From Apostichopus japonicus (Eukaryota; Echinodermata; Holothuroidea; Aspidochirotida; Stichopodidae), in assembly GCF_037975245.1 (NCBI RefSeq), contig NC_092582.1, positions 11,448,001 to 11,512,000 on the forward strand: a DNA stretch of 64,000 nt. The letters run 5' to 3'. Below, piece by piece: positions 26,530 through 60,300 of the stretch (the first letter of the stretch is position 1; every line of letters begins with the position of its first letter). The translations under genes were made by a program, and so were the position numbers. A model generated the notes under the pieces. That model worked only from the letters and a program-made list of their open reading frames with translations. It had not been told where the DNA came from and did not search any database.

Positions 26530-26565
26530 CGTCAATTGAGTCCATTAAAACCTCACGTTTTCCAA

Positions 26566-26767
26566 ATCTCTTCTCGGCCTTTGGCTAAGATCATGTTGTA
26601 GCATGATATGTTCCCCTTGTAGAGGAACCGTGGTACACGCCTGACGATGATCACACATTCACAGAATCGATGCATGGGGCCCAATGGCTTTGAAAGAGGA
26701 TCAGTCTTTCTTTTCTTTTTTTTGCGTCCTAATTTTCATTCTTAGGTGACTTTCCTTAAAAAAAAGT
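26566..26767 (+). mobile_element. SINE with U2 snRNA-derived head, copy 1
   Basis: The first about 45 bases follow the 5' end of U2 snRNA (CTTCTCGGCCTTTGGCTAAG...), then depart into an unrelated body, a short hairpin (CCTAA/TTAGG) and an A-tail. Imperfect flanking repeats at 26550-26567 and 26768-26787 (ACCTCAC...CCAAAT) look like a target-site duplication. LINE-dependent retroposition is inferred. It lies between the UHMK1 and V-ATPase genes. Confidence 0.75.
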
Positions 26768-26787
26768 ACCTCACATGTTTGCCAAAT

Positions 26788-29568
26788 AAGTTTTGTGTTG
26801 CATCTGAGCATGCCGAGCTACAATGCATGATCTGAAGAGCGGAATAATGATCTGCAGTGTGTGATAAACTAAGAAGTTATGCCCCTTTAATTGATGAGCC
26901 TCGATCAGATGTTAAAGGGTGAATAAATTTTTGTTTTGTTTATAATACTAATAATAATATTGTACGTAGCTCGTTACACCTGGATTCGTACTTTGTCTCA
27001 CTCTTCAGATGAAGCTGGTCCCGAAATTTATTCCTATTTGACTAAACTCATTCAACCCTTTTTACTTGAGGATATATACAGATCACATCTACATCTTCTT
27101 CAAAGGCAAACTGATTTTATTTATTCACCAACACAGGCAGCTTTGTTTGCACTTCGCAGTAGCCTGTTGTTTGGTAACATTATGTCTCTTCAATAATTAT
27201 TGAAATTTGTCGATCTTGTTTTCTAGTGTTTTACTTATTCAATTCTTAAGGCTTGTAGCTAGTTCAACTATCAGAACGCCCTAAACTTCTTCCAAGCACA
27301 CCCCGGCAGACTTCAGATTTACTCTACGTACACTTATAGTGCGCTTAATTTATGTGGAACGCATGCAAGTGGTCCAAAAGATAACCACTGTATCTCAAAC
27401 CACGGAGGTATAAACTGCCAGGGTAATACTTACGCTTCCAATGAGTCAACACTGAAATATAGTACCTCCATGGTGTAATAAGCCTATTCAGACTGCTTCT
27501 GCACGGGATATTACCTTGTCCTTGTAGAACCGCAGGTACATTTCTTATCATCATTAACTATGGAAGCAACTAACCAGCTCATATAATTTATTTAGACAGG
27601 ATCTGAACTTAACATGGTTCTTAGAAAACATTGAACTATGATATACCTCGCTGCCATACTGTCAGATCCATATGCCATATACCCGATTTACATGACTGTT
27701 ATTACTATTACTATACGAATTATTTATTGACTATAGGTCGATAAAGGTTGTATATCACATTTATTCCAACAAACACTCATACAGATCTCCTTACGTTTCG
27801 CCACTTTCAAAAGAAGTTATGTTACTTATATGATACTAGGCTTATCCTAATCCTAATTTTCCCATGCTGTAGTCACATTTTTAGGCAGACGAACATCCTC
27901 ATCTTGTCGTGTTTTCATGTGAAGAACAACATTTATGATAAACTCAATGTCCCTCTTTCCTATTCTATTCATATGAATATTAATTAATGATTATCTATTA
28001 ATAACATAAGAAAAGAAGCTTTTATCACATTTTGAAATGATTATCACCCTCGGAGCTACCCTAGCTTGAATGCTTGTAAATCTAAGTTGCTCCAAGTTGT
28101 TTCATTACATCTGAGTTTCGTATCAATGCTTACTTTTTTTTAAAGTTTTTTTTACCCATATGGCCGCCCATACGTAGCGAACTGCCCAGCCCAGAATTGA
28201 TTAAAAATCCAAAAGAAATTTTCAATGCCGAAATCAGTGAAGCAATATGTTGTGCAGTCTCCAGTTTTGTTAGCCACTCAAGAAAAATAAATTTTGATTT
28301 AAGCAGGTCTTCACCCTACACTGGAAGATTTTTGCTGAAGCATTTCAGGTAAATCTATCTTAATTTCTCATTAAGCAAAACCTTCAAATTTTTAAAACAC
28401 TTATGCCAGTAGTCTCGTACTAGCTCAGGCATGTATCCACTGAGTTCATGCTATGTTTTCTTATATTTTAGCAACGTACAAATAGGGCTACAGTATATTG
28501 TTGTCACAACGTTGGGAACTTAAAGCGATTTTATCGTTTTACCAAGTTAAGCCTAAAACTAACAGTAAGTAGGGTAAGGTTAGGGTATCGAAAATTACAT
28601 TAATTTTACTGCAGCGAACCTACATTAGTGGTGTTGTACCGCAGTTAAATGCGTACAAGCTTAGTCCAATATATATATTTCCATTGCCGTAATGTCCATA
28701 TTAAAATCATGAATCTAGCGTAGGCTGTGTTGACTGTGAAATGAAATACAATCTCAAGGGATCAAGTCCCACATTTTACAGGTTGGATTCTTCTGTTAAT
28801 TTAACTGTATGTAAGAAATGTGGAGTGTCATTCTCAATAACCTATGAGAATGACAAAACACCTGACAATAGTAATTGTGTAATAATCTCTTACTAAAATT
28901 TATTTATTAATTCAAATAAATTACAAGGGAAATAACATGTCTCAATGTATAATTAAACAGCAACAACTGTTGCTTTAAAAAAACAAACCTAATAATGGAA
29001 GACGAAGATGGAACTTGATCCTGCTTAAATTTTTTACGACAGTAAAAGTGGATTTTAAAAATTGAATTGTATTAAACTGTTCAGCAAAATTTGATGGTAG
29101 CTAGCCTAAATGTACATGATAAAATAGTATCATGCATTCTATATAAAGATGCAAAAGTCAATCCCTATCATAACAGTATAAATATTCTTTTTAGTATTGA
29201 ACAGGTCCAGTACAAGTTAATGAGATATTTCCACAAGAAATATATTCCTTTGGTGTGTGTTTATAATGGAATGCATCATCAGCTATAAATATTTTGCCAT
29301 CACTTTCAAAGTTTTGACAAGATCAAGGTATTGTAAATTGATTACAACTAGTCTATTTGAATTATAGTCTAACTTACTTGAGCAAAATTATGCAACAAAT
29401 CCCCAAATGACACCAAAAAATCTCCAATATTGGAGAATTTTTGGAGTAGTATAAATTATGATGAATATTCTTAGTTAGCGACACAGTTACTGACTGAACT
29501 TGAATTGAATTGGTTTTGGCTGTTGTTGCGTGTAGCTATCTTTAATTTCAAGTTTCTTTGTTTTACAG
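26788..29568. other. Intergenic / V-ATPase 5' region
   Basis: No coding frame recognised. An upstream noncoding exon of the V-ATPase gene should be here or further left, because coding exon 1 opens with an acceptor at 29568; ATTTCAG|gtaaat near 28350 is one possible donor. Confidence 0.35.
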
Positions 29569-29591
29569 ATTTCCATTAAACAGTGTACATC

Positions 29592-29708
29592 ATGGGATCT
29601 TTGTACAGAAGTGAGGAAATGTGTAAGGCACAAGTGTTTCTGCAATCAGAAGCTGCCTATGCCTGTGTAGCAGAGCTGGGAGAGCTTGGCTTGGTGCAGT
29701 TTAGAGAT
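29592..29708 (+). CDS. ATP6V0A: V-ATPase a exon 1 (residues 1-39)
   Basis: [10 protein letters not shown]...[11 protein letters not shown], the canonical subunit a start. The exon begins upstream at 29569 after tttacag, so 23 nt of 5' UTR precede the ATG. Donor gtaagt. Confidence 0.95.
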
Positions 29709-32700
29709 GTAAGTAAATTTGATGCTCACAGTACTAGGCTTGTATACAGAATGAATGATCACAATGTTAATAGTTATTACAGATCACTATCCCTTTATAT
29801 GCAACAGATGTTATTAGCAGTCCTGAGATTGATAAGGTGGGCAAATGTAAGCTAAATGCCTCCATGTGGAGCATTGATTTAAAACAGAGAATATTGCTGA
29901 TGAGAATAAATGGTTTAGAGATCTATATTAACTATCACCAGGGGTGATAAAGCTCAGCAAAAGTAAAGGTAAAGTACTGGTATTTTTAGGTTACGGCTTC
30001 TTTTTTTCCTTCTTTTTTTTTGTAGCAAAAGTAGATTCTTCAATTTAAAACAAATTGAATTTGAAACAAATACTTAAATTTACAAGCAAATATGAAATTC
30101 AATTCATGAAGATGTACAGTATGCATAAATAACCTAGCTAAAGTAAGCTTTCAGAAAGGAAAAGTGAAAGCACAGTTTTCCATATTTGGGAAATACTAGG
30201 AAGTAGAGACCACTCTACTTGCACTCTGTGTAAACTTACATACTGATGTAAATTCTTGTTGCAAATAGATAAATTCCTGGTACATAAATCTAATGGATAT
30301 TGCTTATATGATATACTTTCCAAGATATATATTTTTCTTGGTATCAAATCTGTTTGAATGGCTTGTAATGTTTGGATATCAGTGTGAGTTTGAACTAAAC
30401 TTTTGAACTGATCTTTTCATGTCTATAAATTTGTATTGAATCCACCTCTCCTCAGCTTAATCCTGATGTGAATGCTTTTCAAAGGAAATTTGTAAATGAA
30501 GTAAGGCGTTGTGATGAAATGGAAAGAAAACTACGTAAGTATTTGAATATTTAATAAAGCAAAATTTTGACAGGTGACCAACAGATGTGGTGGTTAAAGT
30601 GGTCATGGTATGGGGCTGTAGCTGCATGATATGGGCATTGACAAGAGATTGAGTTTAAATGGATGCCGTGGGGGAGGGGGGGCGGTGGATTTCTCATGAT
30701 CACATACATACTTCCAATCATGCAAGTTTTAATAAGAGAATACATACTTTCTTTTATAAACCGTTTAATTTTTGTCACATTCAGTAGAAGAGATGGGCAA
30801 AACAGAAAGTCAAATGTGTTCTTTTGATGAATCTGTTGTAAATTTATAACTGTACTTTGAGGATCGAGCAAGGTAGAATAGATATAAACTGGGTGTACTG
30901 TAACTGGGTTTATATCCAGTAAGGTCTTCTTTGGCCAAGAGTCTGTTGTTTTCCTGTTGTACACATTGAACTTGTTATACTGTAGGAGGGAGATATATTT
31001 AAGTATTTCACAGAATGTGGAACTTAATTGCTAGAAGTCATCTAGAAACAGCCCCCCCCCCCCCTCTACATACCCTGATTGGCTCAGGGTTTGTTCCATG
31101 TCGACCAGGTACAGTATTATCTCTTGACCTTGAGTACTGTAGAAGCCCTGTTCACTTAGCAAAGATGTTCGTAAAACCAAAACCAAACACTGGAATTGGG
31201 GAATTCATTATCTGTATTTCCTGTCGATATTTAGGATTCTTGGAGAAAGAAATTCTACGCGCTGATATCAGGATTCTTGACACTGGTGAGAATCCAGAAG
31301 CCCCAGCACCTAGAGAGATGATTGATTTGGAGGTAGGTTAAAGTTTAATGGTTTCCTTTCTACTTGTAATGTACTGAGTATGGAGTTAAAAGTATTTACG
31401 AGTATAGTCAAAGAAATTGAGCTGTAAACCAAGTGTTTCATGAATGTCTTTCTACATTAAACTTAATATAACAGGAAGAGGCTGGACAGTTTTGACATAA
31501 TTTATAAGGAACCTTCTTCAAAGATTGTAGCCGTGATTGTGTAGTAGGCATACTGTAGCTTTGTTGGTTACGTTTAATGTTACTGTCTTTGTAATAGTTG
31601 TGTGTTGAGCCACAGTTTATTAGCTTAAAGGCATTGAAGACTCGCCCCAAACCGTGTGCCGTGTGGGTATTGACCGTAGCTGTATGTATTGACTCTAGAC
31701 TAGTGTCTAAATTACCGACGATAGCAAGTTGTGTGTGCATTTTCTGGGATCGATGGTGGTGTCTAACACTTCTGTTACACCTCAATCAAAACTCGGTTAG
31801 ATTACCGTCATGAGATGTTTCTTTGTGCGCGAGTCTTCACACCTATTAAAGCTAGTCATATGAGGCTACCTTCATTTCTGGACTAAAAGCTTATGCTGAT
31901 AAATTATGATCACATCAAACCATTTCTTTCTTATAGCTAATAAAAGGAGAAAGGACATTATTTAAGGAAGATTTGACACATATGAATTTTTTTTTGATTT
32001 TTTAAATTTCTAGTCTTGCTTTGAGAAACTTGAAAATGAAATTCAAGAAATCAACACCAACCAGGAAGCACTCAAGAGAAACTACCTGGAACTGACAGAA
32101 TTGAAACACATTCTTGAAAAAGCTCAGCAGTTCTTTGAAGAGGTCAGTTAAAATAGAAAGGCAGAATTATTGTTATTTGTTATTAATAGCTGTTTGTTTA
32201 TTTATTGGTGACATCAAACAGGATAAAAATGGTTTCCTCAAGTCATCAACGACCAGGTCTAATTTCAATATATGTAGAGTTCATCAAGATATCCACCACA
32301 GGAATGTTATACACACGGAAAAACAAAAAGTGGGCGATTTGGCAAACCTGAAAGGCATAGTTTTCCAGAAAGTTGGATTTTGTTTTGAATCAGCCATCAT
32401 ATGTGGGTGGTATCATTTGGCTGTTAAAACAAAGATATGGTGACTTAAAAATACATGTCAGAATAAAAATGTTTTCTTTGAAGAAAATAGGTTCGGAATT
32501 CACCTTAAGAAATGCATGGGGCCCCTCAAATGAAAGAGGGGTCTAGCAACACCCTTGAGACCCTTCAAATAAGACATTTCAAATAGTCACACTGAAAGTG
32601 CTAGCTCTATAGCACAGTGTATGTCATTATTCCCAGTGGCCTCGTGGACGGCCTCCCCCCCCCCCCCAGTGGCCTCGTAGATGGCCTATGTCTTGTTATG

Positions 32701-35700
32701 TAGCAATGTGAGTTAAGGGGAAGTGCAGTTGCTATGGTAGTAAGTTACCAAAACTATCACAGTGAAGAAAAGCAAACTAACATGGGTTGGTGCCTGACCT
32801 GAGTTGTTTGCACATTTAGGTAAACATATTGTCAAGCACACTTAACACTGCACTCGTATACACTATGAATTGAACAAGGACTAAACATACTTCCACTTCT
32901 ACTTGACAATGTGTAGCACTGTAGCATGATCAATGTGATATGTGATATGAATTGCAGCTGCTGTATATTTTGTACACATTGTAGTATACAGTTTGTAATC
33001 TCTCTGTGTCCCTCCTGTTAACCCTATTCCCCTAAGTTCTGATGTTCTTGCATGAAAATAAAGAGCCGAGTAAATTCTTTATACATTTTAATGTTATTGA
33101 CATATGCAGAAATAGTAGTTACTTGTTCACATCCGGCATGTACATGCAAATAGTATTGATACTGTATGGTGGTGCTAGACCTTCAGTGAAAATCAACCAA
33201 CAATACCAGTAACCTGTGTTTTGCTCAGCTTTTTATAAATGTATCTGTGACAAAATGATCCTCGAGTCGGACTTCAATTTAAGAGCACACTTTACTCAGT
33301 TGAAGCTTCAAGTGGAGTGACTGTACTGTGTTAAACATAATATGAAACTATATTTGTTTCTTGAAATGGCCTTGACACAATCAACTAAAGTGTCATAATC
33401 ATACTGCAGCTAGCCATTTCAATATCCATTCATAGTTTCCTATTCATTTTTCCGTCATCCATTGACTTGCTTTTAATATCTGTTGAACCAGTCAAATCTT
33501 GAATCTTAGTATGAGAGAATACTGTATAAGATATTTATCTGATACTTTTCAGATTTTTCGCTACCACAACCATTGTCATTTTATACGGTACTCACACATG
33601 CTGTAAGCTATGGTAGATCTGAAGAGACAATTTAGCAACTCAAAAATGTGGCCAATTGTGTCAAGATATAGATATAAAAAGTTAGCAACTCAACAAAATT
33701 ATGCAAATATATTGTGATGCAGTATTATACTAACACATTATTATACATCTACATTCATCTCATCCTTTTCTCTTTCTGTTTGTCAAAAAGTGGACAAAAG
33801 TCGAGCCCTCAGTTGTTAAGTGTCTTTATTGTCTTCACTATTTATCATTCCTCATCTTCATCTCTGTATCTTTCTTCCATATTTCATTTCATTTTGCTTC
33901 CATGTTGTGTGTCTTGTGATTCCCTTCGTGTATATCATGCATGCTACGTATTATCCACCTTTGGGACCAAAGATTGACTATCATCATGATTTCCAGATAC
34001 GAGATGTGGACAAAGACGAGGAGAGCCACACCATGCTGGGAGAGGAGGGACTCCGTCCAGGACAGGCTATGAGCTTTGGGTAAGCAATATGTGAATTTTA
34101 ATGCAATTCTGGGTTTGACCAAATGCAGGATTGGTATCAGACATAGAAGGTGTGTGGGGGCTGGGGGGAGGGGGGTTGGTAGAGTTTAAGGACAGCTGAT
34201 GTTCTACATAGGTAAGGTGAGGGAAGAATAATATGTGAGGGCTATTCTATAGGACTTCCTCTCCCTTACCCACCTCCCTCCCTCCCTCCCACTAACCCAC
34301 ATCCCCTCCCACTCATCCACCTCCCTCCCACTTTCCTACACTCTCTTTTCTGTAGTTATTGTAGTCAAAACAACTAGTTTAGTCACCAGACAATCTCTTT
34401 GATTAATATTACAAGAATATTAATTATTTGTGTGATATGGTATTTTGGTAACATTGATTATGAAACTTCCCCTACCAAAGCTGATTTGAGATAATTAACA
34501 TTTTGCGACCATCCAACAGACCTCCATAGACCTGTTAGTGAAGCTAACCGTTAAACTGTGATTTATGACAGTTTTAGTATAATCTGAGATCTATTAATGC
34601 AATTACTTTGGTACTGTATAATGCATAATTTCAACCCTCATGTTTGCAAATAGCCTTCATCATTCATCCCTGCGCACAAATTTATGGAATTTGTGAACTT
34701 TTCTTTCAATCCGAAAATACTGTACATTACTATACTGCAGACAAGTACTGTATATGTAGTTCATCAGGCAGCCTTGACAATTTGCAGGTACTGTAGTTCA
34801 TGCATTGGTTGTTGCTGGTACTGTATAAGCCATCTGTTATGTATACAAATCAGGTATTGATTTTGACAAATTTCAAGAGAGGTCCCTTGATGGATTCCCA
34901 GGCTCTTTTGTAATTGACAAAGCATTGGCAATGGCTAATATATTTGATGCACATGCCAAGTTATCTGAATTTTTGTATCTATTCAATGACCGTAAAGGGA
35001 AGTAAGATAAGCTGCTTGAGTAAATGTGGTATATGCTGAAGAAAGTATGGTTATGCCACTTAGGGAAGAGGTGCGCCATTGCAAGTAATTTATTGCTTTC
35101 GACAGAGATTCCAACTCTTCAGTAGTTTTATGTAATGCAATATTTGCTGGTACTGCTTCTTCAGTTTATTTTTATTTATGAATCTCAGATTCTGTGCTGA
35201 TTTGATTGATGGTGTATTTTGGATTCCTCGCAGAAGGCAAAAGGAATTTAGATGAAATGGTGATGGTGTGTGTGTGTGCATACTGTATATATGTGTATGT
35301 GAAACCTATTTGTAAACTGATATTAAATTAAAAAATTATATTTTTGTTGAACTTCATACTTAGTTCTATTTAGATCTCTTTTGGCGATTATATTGAAAGT
35401 TTGTAGAGCTCAAGGTCACTTGAAGACTATGGAGGTCAAAGTCTAAAAACGTTGTCAACATGGTTATTGCAAATTTAACTCTACCGTAATGAGTACAAGA
35501 GTGCATTAATTTTTGTGGAGGTCCGAGGTCACTTGAGATGTAAGTCTGTGTTATGATGTCTGCAAGTAAGCAGAAGAAAGCTGCTTATGTCCTAGGGATA
35601 GCTTAAGGGGATTAAAAAGCTGGGATAACTTAGACATGGAAAGACTTGCTAATAGGATTAAAGGATAGAGCTAGAGATTAGGAGAGGGGTTTAAGGCAGT

Positions 35701-38700
35701 TGGGCTGTGGCTTTTGTGAGGTGAGGAGCGAAGGTAGTAAGGAGAGATCATGTGTAGTATCTGTTCCCTTTCGAGGGGAATGGTGATGCACACCTGACGA
35801 TGATCACACGGTCACAGTCCCGATGCAAGGGGACTGGGGTTGAGAGCGGATCAGTCGTTTGGTAGTTTGGTTTTCGTGCCCAGGTTCTTTCCTGGGCGAC
35901 ATTTCCTTAAAAAAAGGAGTAAGGAGAGACAAGGAAAGAGAGAAGCCAAGGTTGGGTGAGAGGATAGCAGAGGGTAGCAGAGGTTGTTGATGAAGGATTG
36001 ATGTTAAATGATTGTGAATGGAAGCAGTGGCATTTTGTGGAGTTGGAAAATAAAAGAAGAAAAGCATTGAATAACACTATCCTGAACTTATTACCCCAAA
36101 CAACGTAACAGTCTGCAAACCCTTGTAAAACACTATTAAGCTCAAGAAGCAAGTCTTTTGATGAACTTGATACTTCTGATTTATGTCCACCTTAATGATT
36201 AAAGTAATTGCTCTGTTTTCTGTGGAGGTTAAAGGTCATATGAACTTGATACTTATTATTTATGTCCACCTTATTGATTAAAGTAATGCTCTGTTTTCTG
36301 TGGAGGTTAAAGGTCATATGAACTTGATACTTATTATTTATGTCCACCTTATTGATTAAAGTAATGCTCTGTTTTCTGTGGAGGTCAAAGGTCATGTGAA
36401 GTAGATAGAGGCTCAAAAGTCTAAAATTCTTCAAATCATGATACAGAATTCCAAAAGGTAAAGCTGTAAATTTTTTACTGAAATTGTAAATGCATTCAGG
36501 TTTTGCAACTCGACACCTGTAATATAAACTCTACTAAATCTTGGTATATAATGTTCTTGTTTAAATGATTAAGTTTGTTAAATTTATTAAATTATTAAAA
36601 CAGTTTGACCTCCTTTGGGCTGGTCAATACTCAAGATGATCAATTATTTGCTTAGAATTTACTCACCAGACAATACAGGAATATAACACAAGGCATATTT
36701 TCTTTCAGGTTTGTAGCTGGAGTTATCCAACGTGAAAGAATTCCAGCCTTTGAGCAGATGTTGTGGAGAGTTTGTCGAGGCAATGTTTTTCTCAGACTAG
36801 CAGAGATCGACACCGCCTTGGAGGATCCCAGTACAGTAAGTGTGAATAATATAAAAAGACAAAGGTTATTGGCTATTGTGTCGTCTCTTCCCCCATCCTC
36901 TCACCCACTGATTCTTTAACGGTATTAGATGCACCATCAATAACATTGTGCTCTCTTTGAGACATTAATCTAAACTAGTAAAGATTTACACTACAAAGAG
37001 ATTCGTACGTAAAGTCAAAGAACAATCATAATAAAAACAACAGCAAAACATCAGCAACAACAATAATGATAATATTAATGAGAAAACGCATTTAGGTCAC
37101 TTAGCAAGCAACCTTGCAGGTTGGTAGGTAGAAATGCTTAAATCCGACAGGTCACGTGGGGGATGGGGCCTGGGGGGGGTGTGTGGTTGGAGGGTGATGC
37201 GAACCAAACAACTGAGACTTGATCAAGTTGGATCCACATTTTGAGCGCCTTTGTAGATGAGACAACAGTGGAGTGATAATTTACTAACTAGACAGGGCTA
37301 AAACTATTGCTATTGACAGTAGTACAACATAATCTTTCAGTGTATAAATTGATCAAACCATGCCTATTTCATTGGCAGGGTGATGCAATGCAGAAGAGTG
37401 TCTGGGTTGGGGGTTGGAGATGATGGCAGACCAAACACTTGATACTTGATTATGTTGTATCCACATTTTGAAAGTTATTGTAGATGAGGCAACAGTTAGT
37501 GGATTGACACTTAACTATCGTAAGTCAGGCAGGGCTAAGACTATTGATATATATACAGGAATACAACAATATACTTCAGTGTATAAATTGATCTAAAAAT
37601 ACAATTTTCATTATTTTGTAGGGTGATGAGATGCAGAAGAGTGTCTTCATCATCTTCTTCCAAGGCGACCAACTGAAGACCAGGGTCAAGAAAATATGCG
37701 AAGGGTGAGTTTACTTTTGAAAGTAACTCCGGTTTTTTCGCCCTCAATCATCATACTTAATATGAATTCCTTTATATGACCTGCTCAACCATAATGAAGT
37801 CCTTGTTACTTGCATTGACTCTTAAAAATCTGACTTTTCATATCTCAGTATGTGTACTAAGTATTGAAGTATTGTAATGCTTGTTGGATTTTTTTTCTTT
37901 CGTTTCCGTTGCAAGACCTCGTGGGCAATTCTTCTGAAATATTGTCAGTGCGTACTATATGGAACTTGCTCACAACAGTAACATATTTATGCAGTGTCAA
38001 ATCATATCATGCGACATATTTGGAGGCATTTGTGCCTGGTTTTGGTGCCATAATTAGCAATCTTCTCTCATTTAATACTATTTACTTGTCTAAATGTCAA
38101 ACATGGTTTTTGACCTGTAGTATTAATCCACCCTTACATGGTTGCTAACTTTCACAAAATGCATGGAAGCTTAGTTGTGAAATAGGTAAACAAGGTATAT
38201 TCACTATCATAAGTACAGTAGTATCTGGTACCAAGTTCAGGCTGTACACACACCAGGGAGCTACTGACATGCTTGACTGGCTGCGTTGAATGTGGCAGTG
38301 ATACGTACTTCAAGTCTGTATGGGACTGGTATATTCCTTCCCTTCCTGTATAAAACCTTCATTTGTTTGCAGCTAAATACATATATTTATGGAATGATGA
38401 ACTCTGGAAATGAAATCTTGCACAATTATTTTCTGATTCTGCAACATTGCGCTGCTCTAGTTTCTAATTAGATGGGCCTGTGTGGTGGAAGGTTCAAGGC
38501 GTTTTATAAACTTAATTGATTGATGCAGCTGATATGTAATAAAACATGGAATGAATGCCTGTTAACTGTGGATGATAGGAGACTAGAACTCCATGTACAT
38601 AGTCTGATGTTTTGATCTATTTTGATCTGGAGCCAAAGTCAAAACTGGACTGGATGCAGTAAGTTCTAGTAGCCATGGCTTGTAGCCATGACTACTATAA

Positions 38701-55671: not shown

Positions 55672-56627
55672 TATGGAAAGCCATTTTAACATTTAATCGG
55701 GAATTTCAGATATCTTAAATTGTTTCTTATTTTAGATATCTAAAATTCTATTTCAGATATCTAAAATTAAATTCGAGATATCTGAAATTGAATTCGAGAT
55801 ATCTGAAATTTTATTTCAGATATCTGAAATTGAATTCGAGATATCTAATATAGATTTCGAGATATCTGAAATTCTAATTCAGATATCTGAAATTGAATTC
55901 GAGATATCTGAAATTGAATTCGAGATATCCGAAATTGAATTCGAGATATCTGAAATTCTATTTCAGATATCTGAAATTGAATTCGAGATATCTGAAATTG
56001 AATTCGAGATATCTGAAATTGAATTCGAGATATCTGAAATTGAATTCAAGATATCGGCAAATCTAATTCGAGATATCTGAAATTGAATTCGAGATATCTG
56101 CAATTGAATTCCAGATATCTGTAATGCATATGCAGAAATTTCCGATTAAATGTTAAAATGGCACGTATGGAAAGCCATTTTAACATTTAATCGGGTATTT
56201 TCAGATATCTGTAATTGAATTCGAGATATCTGAAATTCTATTTCAGATATCTGAAATTGAATTCGAGATATCTGAAATTGAATTCGAGATATCTGAAATT
56301 GAATTCGAGATATCCGAAATTGAATTCGAGATATCTAAAATTCTATTTCAGATATCTGAAAGTGAATTCGAGATATCTGAAATTGAATTCGAGATATCTG
56401 AAATTGAATTCGAGATATCTGCAATTGAATTCGAGATATCTCGAATTCAATTTCAGATATCTGAAATTCCCTTGTATTTCGAGATATCTGAAATTGATTT
56501 TAAGATATCTGCAATTATTTGTAGATATCTTAAATAAATTGGAGATATCTGTAATTTAATTTGAGATATCTGAAATTATTTCGAGATATCTGAAATTCCT
56601 TATTAAATGTTAAAACGGCTTTCCATA
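55672..56627. mobile_element. TIR element filled with a 21-bp palindromic satellite
   Basis: Starts TATGGAAAGCCATTTTAAC and ends with its inverted complement; CGTGAT duplicated at 55666-55671 and 56628-56633. Inside are about 40 copies of a 21-bp unit (starting GAATTCGAGATATCTG, so EcoRI and EcoRV sites recur). A second internal pair of termini at 56139-56195 shows two such units in tandem. Confidence 0.75.
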
Positions 56628-57386: not shown

Positions 57387-60300
57387 GTTTGTAGCCTATT
57401 GCCTTGTATTTGTGAGTTGTATGTCCTAATGTCGGCTAAGGCTAATACTAGCCAAGTTAGGTTTAGTTCGAACGTTACAGTGTGTAGGTCCATGCCCAAC
57501 TTAAGAGCAATGCAGATGCTAAAATTGTGTACATCAGTGGTGATTCTAAGACTGTGTGCTGTATGTTTAAGCCTAGGCCTACAAGTTACAACCAAGTAGG
57601 CTAGGTTTGCTTACAGTAAGGGTATAGCCTACTTAGTGTCAGATATATGCAACATACTGTATATATCAGACAGTAGTACTGTCAGATATACGTGCTTAGT
57701 GAACTGACTAAGTTTATGGTTACTTGGGCAAGTAAAATATGCCCAAATCATTACTTTTGTATATATTGTCAAAATTTTAGAGCAAAATATGTAATGACTC
57801 TTTCAGTAACCATAATAATTTCTTAGAAAACTTCCCATAAATGCCCTCAGTTTGCACAATGCTTTTACTTTTAGGAATATCATTTGGGAAACAGTTGTAT
57901 ATCAAATATGGTCCGATTTTTACTTGTTGATGATGTTCACTACAGGGTATCAATAGAAACATGCCATCCAAGCTTATTAACAGTAATTAACACTAGTTTT
58001 AACCATGTGCTTCAGTTGGGGGTTTTCCAATTGTTTTAAGTGTGTAAATTGGTATGAAATTCTACATACATACAGTACAGCTTGTTTATGCAGAGTGGCT
58101 GTAATGGTATTGCTTGAAGTTTCACTATGATTGCTTGGGTGGTAGGAATGGGAGCTACAGTGATATCCAGGGTGAATCGGAGATGAGCAGCAAGAAGCTA
58201 GCTATGAATGAAAGTCACTTAAGGGTAGGGGAGGAGGATCTGAGACCAAAGGGAAGGGGGGGGGGGCATTGTGGTCAAGTGGTTAAGGCAGTGGACTTGT
58301 GATCTAAGGATTACAGGTTCGAGCCCTGGCCAGGTCACTGCGTTGTGTCCTTGGGCAAGGCACTTTATCTCTGTTGCCTCGTTGCGCTTATGCCCTATGG
58401 GTTTCTGCAACATAAGAAGAAGAAGAAGGAAAATACCACCGTCATACTGCATTTTAGGGTAAAAGACTGGGATATTCTCATGTGAATCTTGCTTATTAAT
58501 TTACATTTGACAAGATTTTTTGTCAATGATACAAGACATTTTGACACAATGTTTTGCCAACAAGATGTACTTTAGTATGTTCTTACATAGGTGATGTCTG
58601 GAACTTAGTACAAATGTGTGTGTACTGTCTGATATCACTGATCATATGATGCAGCTTGTAATAGGACTTGTTGCTAAAGATCAATTTTTTTGTCAGGCAT
58701 TCAGATTTTCAGATTTCGATGGGCTACCAGCAAAGTTCCTTACAAATTTGCCTTGCTCTTACTGTACTGTAGCTAGCAGTAAAGACAGGGTTAATCTCTT
58801 GGTGAAAATAACCTTATTTTCCCCACCTAAGCGGTAAAAAACAGGTTAATAAAACTGTTAAAAACCCATTTGGATTATCTACTATTTACATCATTGTGGT
58901 CATCTCTGGGTTTAATTCTTGGGAAAGTCTTTTCAGCTTAATGTTCTGCATTTTAACTTAATTTGTAAACTTGTAACTAAGTTGTGATAGGTTGTGATAA
59001 TCCTAATAATAAGCTGACATTTCAAGACAGATGACATTCAAGATCACATACAGGTAGTCAATGTTGTATTTCAGTAGCACACACTACAGTAAATATTTGG
59101 TAATTAAAGTGTGTTGAGGCAACCAAGGCTACCTTTCACTTCTTTGTGAAAACATGCAAAAACTGTTTTTCTTACTGTTTTTGTCATCCAGTGCAATTTA
59201 TACAGATTCATTGAGGAAATGTTCTTAAAATCCAGACTAAATTAATAAATAATTTATAACTAAGGTACAGTATATGTAAAAGTTATCTGTGTTCTTATCT
59301 TTCAGCAAATATATTTGACTTCTTGTACTTATTAGATGATGACCTTTATGAGTGGCAGAGTTCATGCATAAATATTTGTTCTCTGAATCTCTGCAGTGTT
59401 TACTCAGGAGGTATTATCCTAAGATCAAAGAAACAGTCTTAGAAGATATTATCATAAGATCAATGATCCAGAATGACATGTACATTCACTGACAGTAGCT
59501 CTTAAGGTCATCAAACTGTTTATATTCACAGAGTTTATTGCTGGTAAGTCTAGATTAGTGATGTGGTGGGGTCAAGCCTCATTGAACAATTGTCTTTGTT
59601 ACATTGCATGTTTTGTAGAACCATACAATGTCAAAGGTCGGATATTGAGTGGGCTGCATAATTGCTGCAGCCAGGAATCTTACTATATTGTTTATTACTA
59701 CATCCTCCTCCTGTAGATCCGAGCAGGATATTGCAGCCGCTGCAGCTTTTTGACGTAGTGCCCTAATTGATTTTCACTCATTCAGCTTTACATACTACTG
59801 CGCTCTGCATATATAACCATGTTAACCCATTTGGTATGCCTACAGTGAATATATGTGAGTCTTACCTATCTTTACATTATGTTTTCACAGATGGGCCTCC
59901 CTCGTTATGCCATACAATGCCTTGCTACTTGGACTCAAATTCGATGTACGAGGAAAAGAGAACTTGCAGAAACTCAAAAACAGACCGTGCGTGGTGGTTG
60001 TAAACCACCAGTCATCACTAGACGTTTTAGGTGAGATTTTAAACCGTCTTATAGTTCTGTATGCCAAATGTATTCAGATTTCAGAGACACTCAGCCTCTG
60101 TCCTCGTCAAGGTGTAGAAAGACATTAAATGCCTGACCTTCAGGAATATGTGATTTCCGGCTGTACCTTACTTCCATGTGCGTAACTGTAAGGACACATA
60201 AAGTTACGGTACTTAGCAAACCTTTAAATTGGCACAGTATGACTGTGTAGACACTTATACCCTACAGAATGTATTACTTGTAGATAAATGACTCTTTGCC

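Follow-up and report, generated by a model that had tools for sequence, protein, structure and literature searches.

The sea cucumber Apostichopus japonicus carries a family of short interspersed elements (SINEs) whose 5' part, or head, comes from U2 small nuclear RNA (snRNA). The mitochondrial contig of this genome translates well with the echinoderm code and has an echinoderm gene order. Two copies of the family lie in the stretch of 64,000 nucleotides analysed here (contig NC_092582.1, positions 11,448,001 to 11,512,000; hereafter the window). Other copies are inserted in the U2 genes themselves, at one site, which provides a direct source for the U2 head. The family is probably a non-autonomous retroposon targeted to U2 genes: its head would be the target gene, its movement would depend on a Keno-like long interspersed element (LINE), and its dispersed copies would be off-target products. 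SINEs with snRNA heads are already known, and the comparisons below suggest that the new feature is the residence of such a SINE in U2 genes at a site used by LINEs. Neither a U2-site SINE nor a U2-headed sea cucumber SINE was found in the open-access literature searched, although a description or a Repbase/Dfam entry may exist.

Forty-six U2 genes were scored in the genome, of which 42 lie on C16, mostly with a 645-bp period, and four on C15. The first SINE seen in the C16 array, a match to the consensus of one body type (D), reads as U2 promoter, U2 nucleotides 1-45, SINE body, the tail AAAAAGTA, and U2 again from nucleotide 39. A pattern built for that junction, the tail joined to U2 from nucleotide 39 onward, occurs exactly at seven places in the whole genome (671.6 Mb), while the reversed control occurs at none; collapsed or masked parts of the array could hide further U2 copies. 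All seven junctions were read: six are in genes of the C16 array, and the seventh, L195 on C20, lies within a U2 copy that has diverged. An eighth match, with two mismatches, is a cluster of SINEs (L196).

The array copies take several forms. In L163, L192 and L193, the U2 promoter and U2 nucleotides 1-45 (with one base changed in L192) run directly into the body, while in L172 a truncated copy is nested in an older copy at the same site. L191 and L194 are 5'-truncated copies between duplications of about 15 bp of U2 nucleotides 39-53, as target-primed insertion would leave, and L191 lies behind the 3' end of a LINE. The 240 nucleotides upstream are those of an intact U2 unit in L163, L192, L193 and L194 (no mismatches) and in L172 (one mismatch). 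A comparison of 14 U2 loci, among them L195, shows the body only at these junctions; it also occurs once outside U2 (L046). The family thus shows the insertion between nucleotides 38 and 39 that marks U2-site-specific elements, though most of its copies lie elsewhere.

The resident copies have the same sequence as dispersed ones. L163 is identical over 187 nucleotides to 19 dispersed loci, picked as near-full-length matches from a comparison enriched for young, full-length copies. Each of these has a different flank and starts at U2 nucleotide 1-3, where the RNA starts. The U2 promoter sequence was not found upstream of the 19 copies (7-10 mismatches in 15 positions, against none in L163 itself). 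Two head-body junctions are seen in U2-resident copies, TTCCCTTAGGG and TTCCCCTCGGG; the latter is that of L193, which matches over its full sequence the first SINE of a dispersed cluster (L078).

Dispersed insertions prefer a sequence that resembles the U2 site. At 58 dispersed target sites, A precedes the insertion point in 81%, and T, C and T occupy the three positions after it in 69%, 43% and 52%, compared with background frequencies of 0.32 for A, 0.33 for T and 0.17 for C. The resulting consensus, A^TCT (the caret marks the insertion point), is similar to GTA^TCTG in U2. Copies with the old type of head, described below, also prefer T/C after GTA, in a sample of only 12. In L098, L172 and L196, a tail ending in GTA is followed by U2-type nucleotides 39-45 within the head of another copy.

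Two LINE families of the array, K1 and K2, are inserted in U2 with their 3' junction at the same nucleotide 39 (K1, ..AAAAGTA^TCTG, read in L172; K2, ..AAAAGAAA^TCTG, read in L171). Open reading frame 2 (ORF2) is about 1,162 amino acids long in K1 and 1,157 in K2, and the ORF2 pieces of both (L197, L198) contain Exo_endo_phos and RVT_1 domains, with zf-RVT above the Pfam cut-off only in the piece from K1. CCHC knuckles are present in the ORF1 sequence fetched for K1 (L207) and for an adjacent LINE of the array (L171). The array LINEs thereby combine the marks of Keno, an APE endonuclease and a reverse transcriptase in an element inserted in U2 between nucleotides 38 and 39. LINE 5' junctions after U2 nucleotide 29 (L171) and nucleotide 25 (L172) were considered as those of K2 and K1 and rejected, since they belong to neighbouring LINE copies. 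A third LINE family (L048/L049, L135; an ORF of about 961 amino acids and a 3' end of (TTG)n) is also present in the array, a dozen bases upstream of a U2 gene start.

These observations are consistent with the following mechanism. Body copies lie at nucleotides 38^39, behind an intact promoter region and the first 45 nucleotides of U2, and transcription from the U2 promoter would yield a U2(1-45)-body RNA ending in AAAAAGUA. A Keno-like LINE of the same array with an APE endonuclease, K1 or K2, would probably copy this RNA by target-primed reverse transcription, which would start at the terminal GUA. U2 genes, and the U2 site in the heads of other copies, receive insertions at the exact site; insertions at A^TCT-like sites elsewhere would give rise to the dispersed U2-headed SINEs, with U2-resident copies as their source. 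On this view the U2 head chiefly records the host gene and was not acquired as a promoter.

The two window copies would be off-target products of this process, one old and the other 5'-truncated. Their features are as follows.

26550 to 26567, + strand: first copy, 5' copy of the target duplication, imperfect, recognised by eye; ACCTCACgttttCCAAAT from 26550, resembling 26768-26787 with differences
26566 to 26614, + strand: first copy, head from U2 snRNA nucleotide 1 to about 45, of the old type (GTAGCAT..ATGTTCC), from alignment to genomic U2
26615 to 26757, + strand: first copy, body, the most diverged of 117 scored copies, 18.6% from body consensus B
26728 to 26746, + strand: first copy, 3' hairpin CCTAA/TTAGG, a decayed family hairpin (z +0.37) with its register shifted against the consensus stem
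26758 to 26768, + strand: first copy, tail, A8 then GTA, the last A perhaps part of the 3' duplication
26768 to 26787, + strand: first copy, 3' copy of the target duplication, imperfect, recognised by eye; ACCTCACatgtttgCCAAAT from 26768
35736 to 35747, + strand: second copy, 5' copy of the target duplication, perfect, 12 bp, AGTAAGGAGAGA
35748 to 35917, + strand: second copy, 5'-truncated, of body type C (3.1% from consensus C), with tail A7-GG
35878 to 35897, + strand: second copy, 3' hairpin GCCCAGG-TTCTTT-CCTGGGC, equal to the family consensus (-16.9 kcal/mol, z -3.45)
35918 to 35929, + strand: second copy, 3' copy of the target duplication, perfect, 12 bp

A sequence-only reading of the window had joined the copies at 26566-26767 and 35748-35917 into one SINE family, with a common U2 5' region on an unrelated body, and had proposed that further copies be sought and their heads aligned with the U2 genes of the genome. 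This identification is confirmed. A 23-nucleotide body core, searched in the whole genome with up to two mismatches, has 1,993 matches, compared with none for the reversed pattern, and the heads of the family match the 5' end of the genome's own U2 genes. The family has the marks of an snRNA-headed SINE, with U2 nucleotides 1-45/50 on an unrelated body and many dispersed copies. When the first window copy was used as the query, all 42 listed matches, itself included (40 of 1,453 candidates scored), started in the head, at query nucleotides 1-16. The Rfam U2 model matches this copy weakly, at 26.7 bits against a gathering score of 46; the second copy starts at about U2 nucleotide 24-27, so its head is truncated. 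The first alignment contained both window copies and 37 of 39 further fetched copies, without two tandem pairs (L006, L024), and L078 was left out of the single-copy tables.

The marks of LINE-type insertion, namely target duplications, 5' truncation and an A-rich tail, are present across the family. Duplications had been claimed for both window copies; that of the second is perfect, while that of the first, seen by eye, was not accepted by the automated scoring. In the family as a whole, a duplication score of at least 7 was reached by 71 of 129 copies (control rate 0.010), a few of which are copies of one duplicated locus (e.g., L072/L073, L095-L097 and L100/L101), and a score of at least 9 by 53 copies (control 0.002); the median length in the 71 is 12 bp. 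The A-tail of the earlier description is usually a run of A followed by GTA, and GTA continues 85 of the 129 tails; 18 of 147 copies, which have no readable tail, are outside these tables. The published genome assembly paper, in its available text, gives 159,644 bp (0.02%) of SINEs for this species (PMC10344927). Since about 2,000 copies of about 190 nucleotides exceed that figure, the family is probably missing, wholly or partly, from that count.

Elsewhere in the window, positions 58265-58337 resemble a tRNA (34 bits, above the gathering score of 29), possibly a tRNA gene, a pseudogene or the head of another SINE. At 56367-56468, GAGATATCTGAAATTGAATTC-like units form a palindromic repeat that several unrelated microRNA families match below their gathering scores.

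The 3' hairpin is recognisable in the family, with the consensus GCCCAGG-TTCTTT-CCTGGGY. The sequence-only reading had gone further, proposing that different bases with the same pairing in the two window copies reflect a structure recognised by a partner LINE. The larger sample does not support this. In the 135 of 147 copies that have all stem positions (12 were left out of the test), 873 of 945 cells are paired, compared with 872.0 (standard deviation 2.2) in shuffles; paired changes on both sides occur twice, with 1.48 expected. At 0.064, the mismatch rate of the stem against the consensus is not below the 0.052 of the rest of the body. The stem is thus kept only through descent in this data set. 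The stem of the first window copy, at -2.9 kcal/mol equalled by 124 of 200 shuffles, is a single decayed and register-shifted case.

A partner LINE sharing the 3' end of the SINE had also been anticipated, and none was found by exact patterns or in the fetched LINE pieces. The terminal 19-mer with altered stem bases has no match in the genome. With the upstream bases altered, the exact stem-loop gives ten matches. Of the five that were read (L146-L150), two belong to SINEs and the other three contain only the last 38 or so nucleotides of the SINE, with L148 and L149 representing one locus. The LINE pieces (L131-L145 and L171-L182; PF14529/PF03372 searches), not all of which extend as far as an identifiable LINE 3' end, resemble the SINE only weakly and over short stretches, besides the true SINE/U2 stretches in L171 and L172; the LINE 3' ends that were read include (ACTAA)n, (TTG)n and (TAAG)n. 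Within these patterns and pieces, the common 3' end of a stringent SINE/LINE pair was not seen, nor was a covarying stem in the 135 copies, and the SINE and K1 have only their last seven nucleotides (AAAAGTA) in common. At L148 and L149 (on C18, one duplicated locus), only the hairpin and tail were inserted, with a target duplication, and this is the smallest inserting unit seen.

RNA folding relates the head to the body. U2 nucleotides 25-40, which include the branch-site recognition sequence, fold together with the body in all five consensus head-body types tried (z -1.27 to -3.77). This segment, in which the insertion site also lies, is complementary to the beginning of the body.

Four types of body, B, C, D and E, can be told apart. 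The A type of head (GTAGCATTATG) is confined to body B, in 35 copies with a median body divergence of 0.077, of which 19 were fetched using that head; nucleotides 36-42 of the old head are not those of U2. The 12 tabulated D copies diverge by 0-2% (median 0.007), and their heads, some truncated, match U2 to nucleotide 45 or 49/50 with 0-1 mismatches. Against the D consensus, for which 40 of 2,762 candidates were scored, the best 40 matches all reach at least 98% identity, which by this sequence measure indicates that the family was active recently. Several combinations of head junction with body type are found in D and E copies. Renewal of heads, judged from body age alone, is ambiguous, as U2-like heads are found on some older copies too. 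A 5'-truncation hot spot at U2 nucleotide 23 was dropped because several of the copies concerned have common flanks.

Two dispersed loci are unusual in structure. L078 (C2:21947584-21949150) is a chain of nine SINE tails, in which all units but the first appear to be 5'-truncated; each is followed by the short target TATCCTA, as if one site had been reused many times, and towards the end a block of two units has been duplicated. L130 (C4:12383700-12385100) is a SINE-derived satellite, a tandem array of old-type copies with a period of about 151 bp.

Several points weigh against a U2-targeted origin with off-target dispersal. Transcription of the element from the U2 promoter is a step that we infer. 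The U2 junctions were sought with their own pattern, so copies elsewhere in U2 genes could escape. The identity of resident and dispersed copies does not by itself prove that sequence passed from the former to the latter, and one head junction, TTCTTTTA, shared by six identical dispersed loci, is not seen in any U2-resident copy. The departure of the old head from U2 at nucleotides 36-42 means that it came from something other than an unaltered U2 gene. The likeness of the SINE to K1 is limited to the seven terminal nucleotides mentioned above. The SINE is found genome-wide, while the 19 matches for the K1 3' end are confined to C16, at 30.88-31.16 Mb; that query includes about 20 nucleotides of U2, seven matches cover it whole, and 12 are short and partly U2. 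Either the off-target rate of the SINE would be far above that of its partner or another LINE moves the SINE. Dense LINE clusters, with many ORFs of about 1,149-1,158 amino acids, are present on C17 (15.4-25.7 Mb), C16 (26-31 Mb) and C11 (13-14.5 Mb). Five of the best 40 young SINE matches lie on C17 at 19.0-24.4 Mb, and a LINE clustered there might be an alternative partner.

The U2-gene copies might instead be by-products of a SINE whose RNA annealed through its head to a homologous target. The imbalance between 1,993 core matches genome-wide and seven U2 junctions, together with the old head type that is not identical to U2, would fit such an origin. So would an A-box-like match (TGGCTAAGATC, one mismatch) within the U2 part, which also counts against transcription from the U2 promoter. 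However, no B box is better than two mismatches in nine, runs of TTTT occur at positions 15 and 146, and TTTTT at 176-180 of 191, 11 nucleotides before the 3' end, would normally stop an RNA polymerase III transcript before AAAAAGTA; a scan of this kind is weak evidence. By-product formation alone would also leave unexplained why the youngest heads match U2 nucleotides 1-45/1-50 with 0-1 mismatches, whereas old ones differ, and we consider it rather unlikely.

Heads could also have been added repeatedly, by a reverse transcriptase switching templates from SINE RNA to U2 snRNA. Jumps of R2 to U12 snRNA and tRNA are described in the available text of PMC3414825, and the several combinations of head junction and body type in D and E copies could arise in this way. 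Against this, headed copies in U2 genes behind an intact promoter region already supply the same join, and two U2-resident junctions are identical to dispersed ones, which makes template switching an improbable source of the heads. Still less credible is the view that the U2-resident copies were not retrotransposed into U2 but formed when dispersed SINE heads and U2 genes underwent gene conversion. The compared U2 units differ little or not at all over 240 upstream nucleotides, and the C16 array contains 42 of the 46 scored genes, which makes homogenisation likely in it. Yet L191 and L194 are truncated, headless copies at the same site with duplications of about 15 bp, and LINEs occupy that site as well; conversion as the source has hardly any probability. 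Targeted insertion into U2 genes thus stays the reading that we prefer.

Known systems show partial parallels. The crocodilian SINEU elements, described by Kojima in 2015, are said to have gained U1 or U2 heads repeatedly and to have a Tx1-type partner LINE, and they reportedly prefer a Mariner element as their target. By this description, the sea cucumber family is similar in having a 5' snRNA head. It differs in having copies inside U2 genes at the Keno/Utopia site, whose exact sequence is common to dispersed copies. The existence of crocodilian snRNA-headed SINEs is cited in the accessible parts of PMC7245038 and PMC8010984.

According to the portion of PMC4640811 available, U2 downstream of Utopia in Phytophthora starts at nucleotide 39; Keno is flanked on its 3' side in the same way as Utopia and has an APE-like endonuclease. 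The sea cucumber SINE, K1 and K2 use the U2 site of these published descriptions, and K1 and K2 carry an endonuclease domain of the APE type, a likeness of site and domains. In contrast to Keno and Utopia, the SINE is non-coding and about 190 nucleotides long, and nothing like the array LINEs was found in it beyond the terminal AAAAGTA.

The closest published mechanism, as far as the available text of PMC3414825 describes it, is that of the SIDEs (R2 and R2/R1) in Drosophila 28S genes, which rely on the transcript of the target gene and on the machinery of a site-specific LINE. The sea cucumber element is likewise short, non-autonomous and present in a multicopy RNA gene. SIDEs derive from LINEs by internal deletion and, according to the same source, the R2 ribozyme removes their 28S part, whereas the 5' end of the target gene stays as the head in dispersed sea cucumber copies. 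The SINE body was not recognised as a LINE deletion derivative, showing no similarity to the fetched pieces of array LINEs (ends in L171 and L172; coding pieces L197, L198 and L207).

The finding addresses a puzzle, namely how SINEs come by snRNA fronts and how they are transcribed when snRNA genes use upstream promoters. Here, one array unites the target gene, the element and the LINEs, and identical dispersed copies exist alongside. It is possible, and we propose it only tentatively, that snRNA-headed SINEs as a class are tenants of snRNA genes: parasites of LINEs that target these genes, which would use the RNA polymerase II promoter of the gene and carry its 5' end as a head when they insert off-target. 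If so, the head would not be an internal promoter and would be renewed with each return to the gene, and the fold of the body on U2 nucleotides 25-40, around the insertion site, could assist in presenting or guiding the RNA. The mechanism proposed here ties U2-targeting LINEs to snRNA-headed SINEs and predicts similar resident copies wherever such SINEs occur. The family would also be a SINE-like one run by the RNA polymerase II promoter of a gene, and a natural example of site-specific machinery with a cargo that escapes to look-alike sites across the genome.

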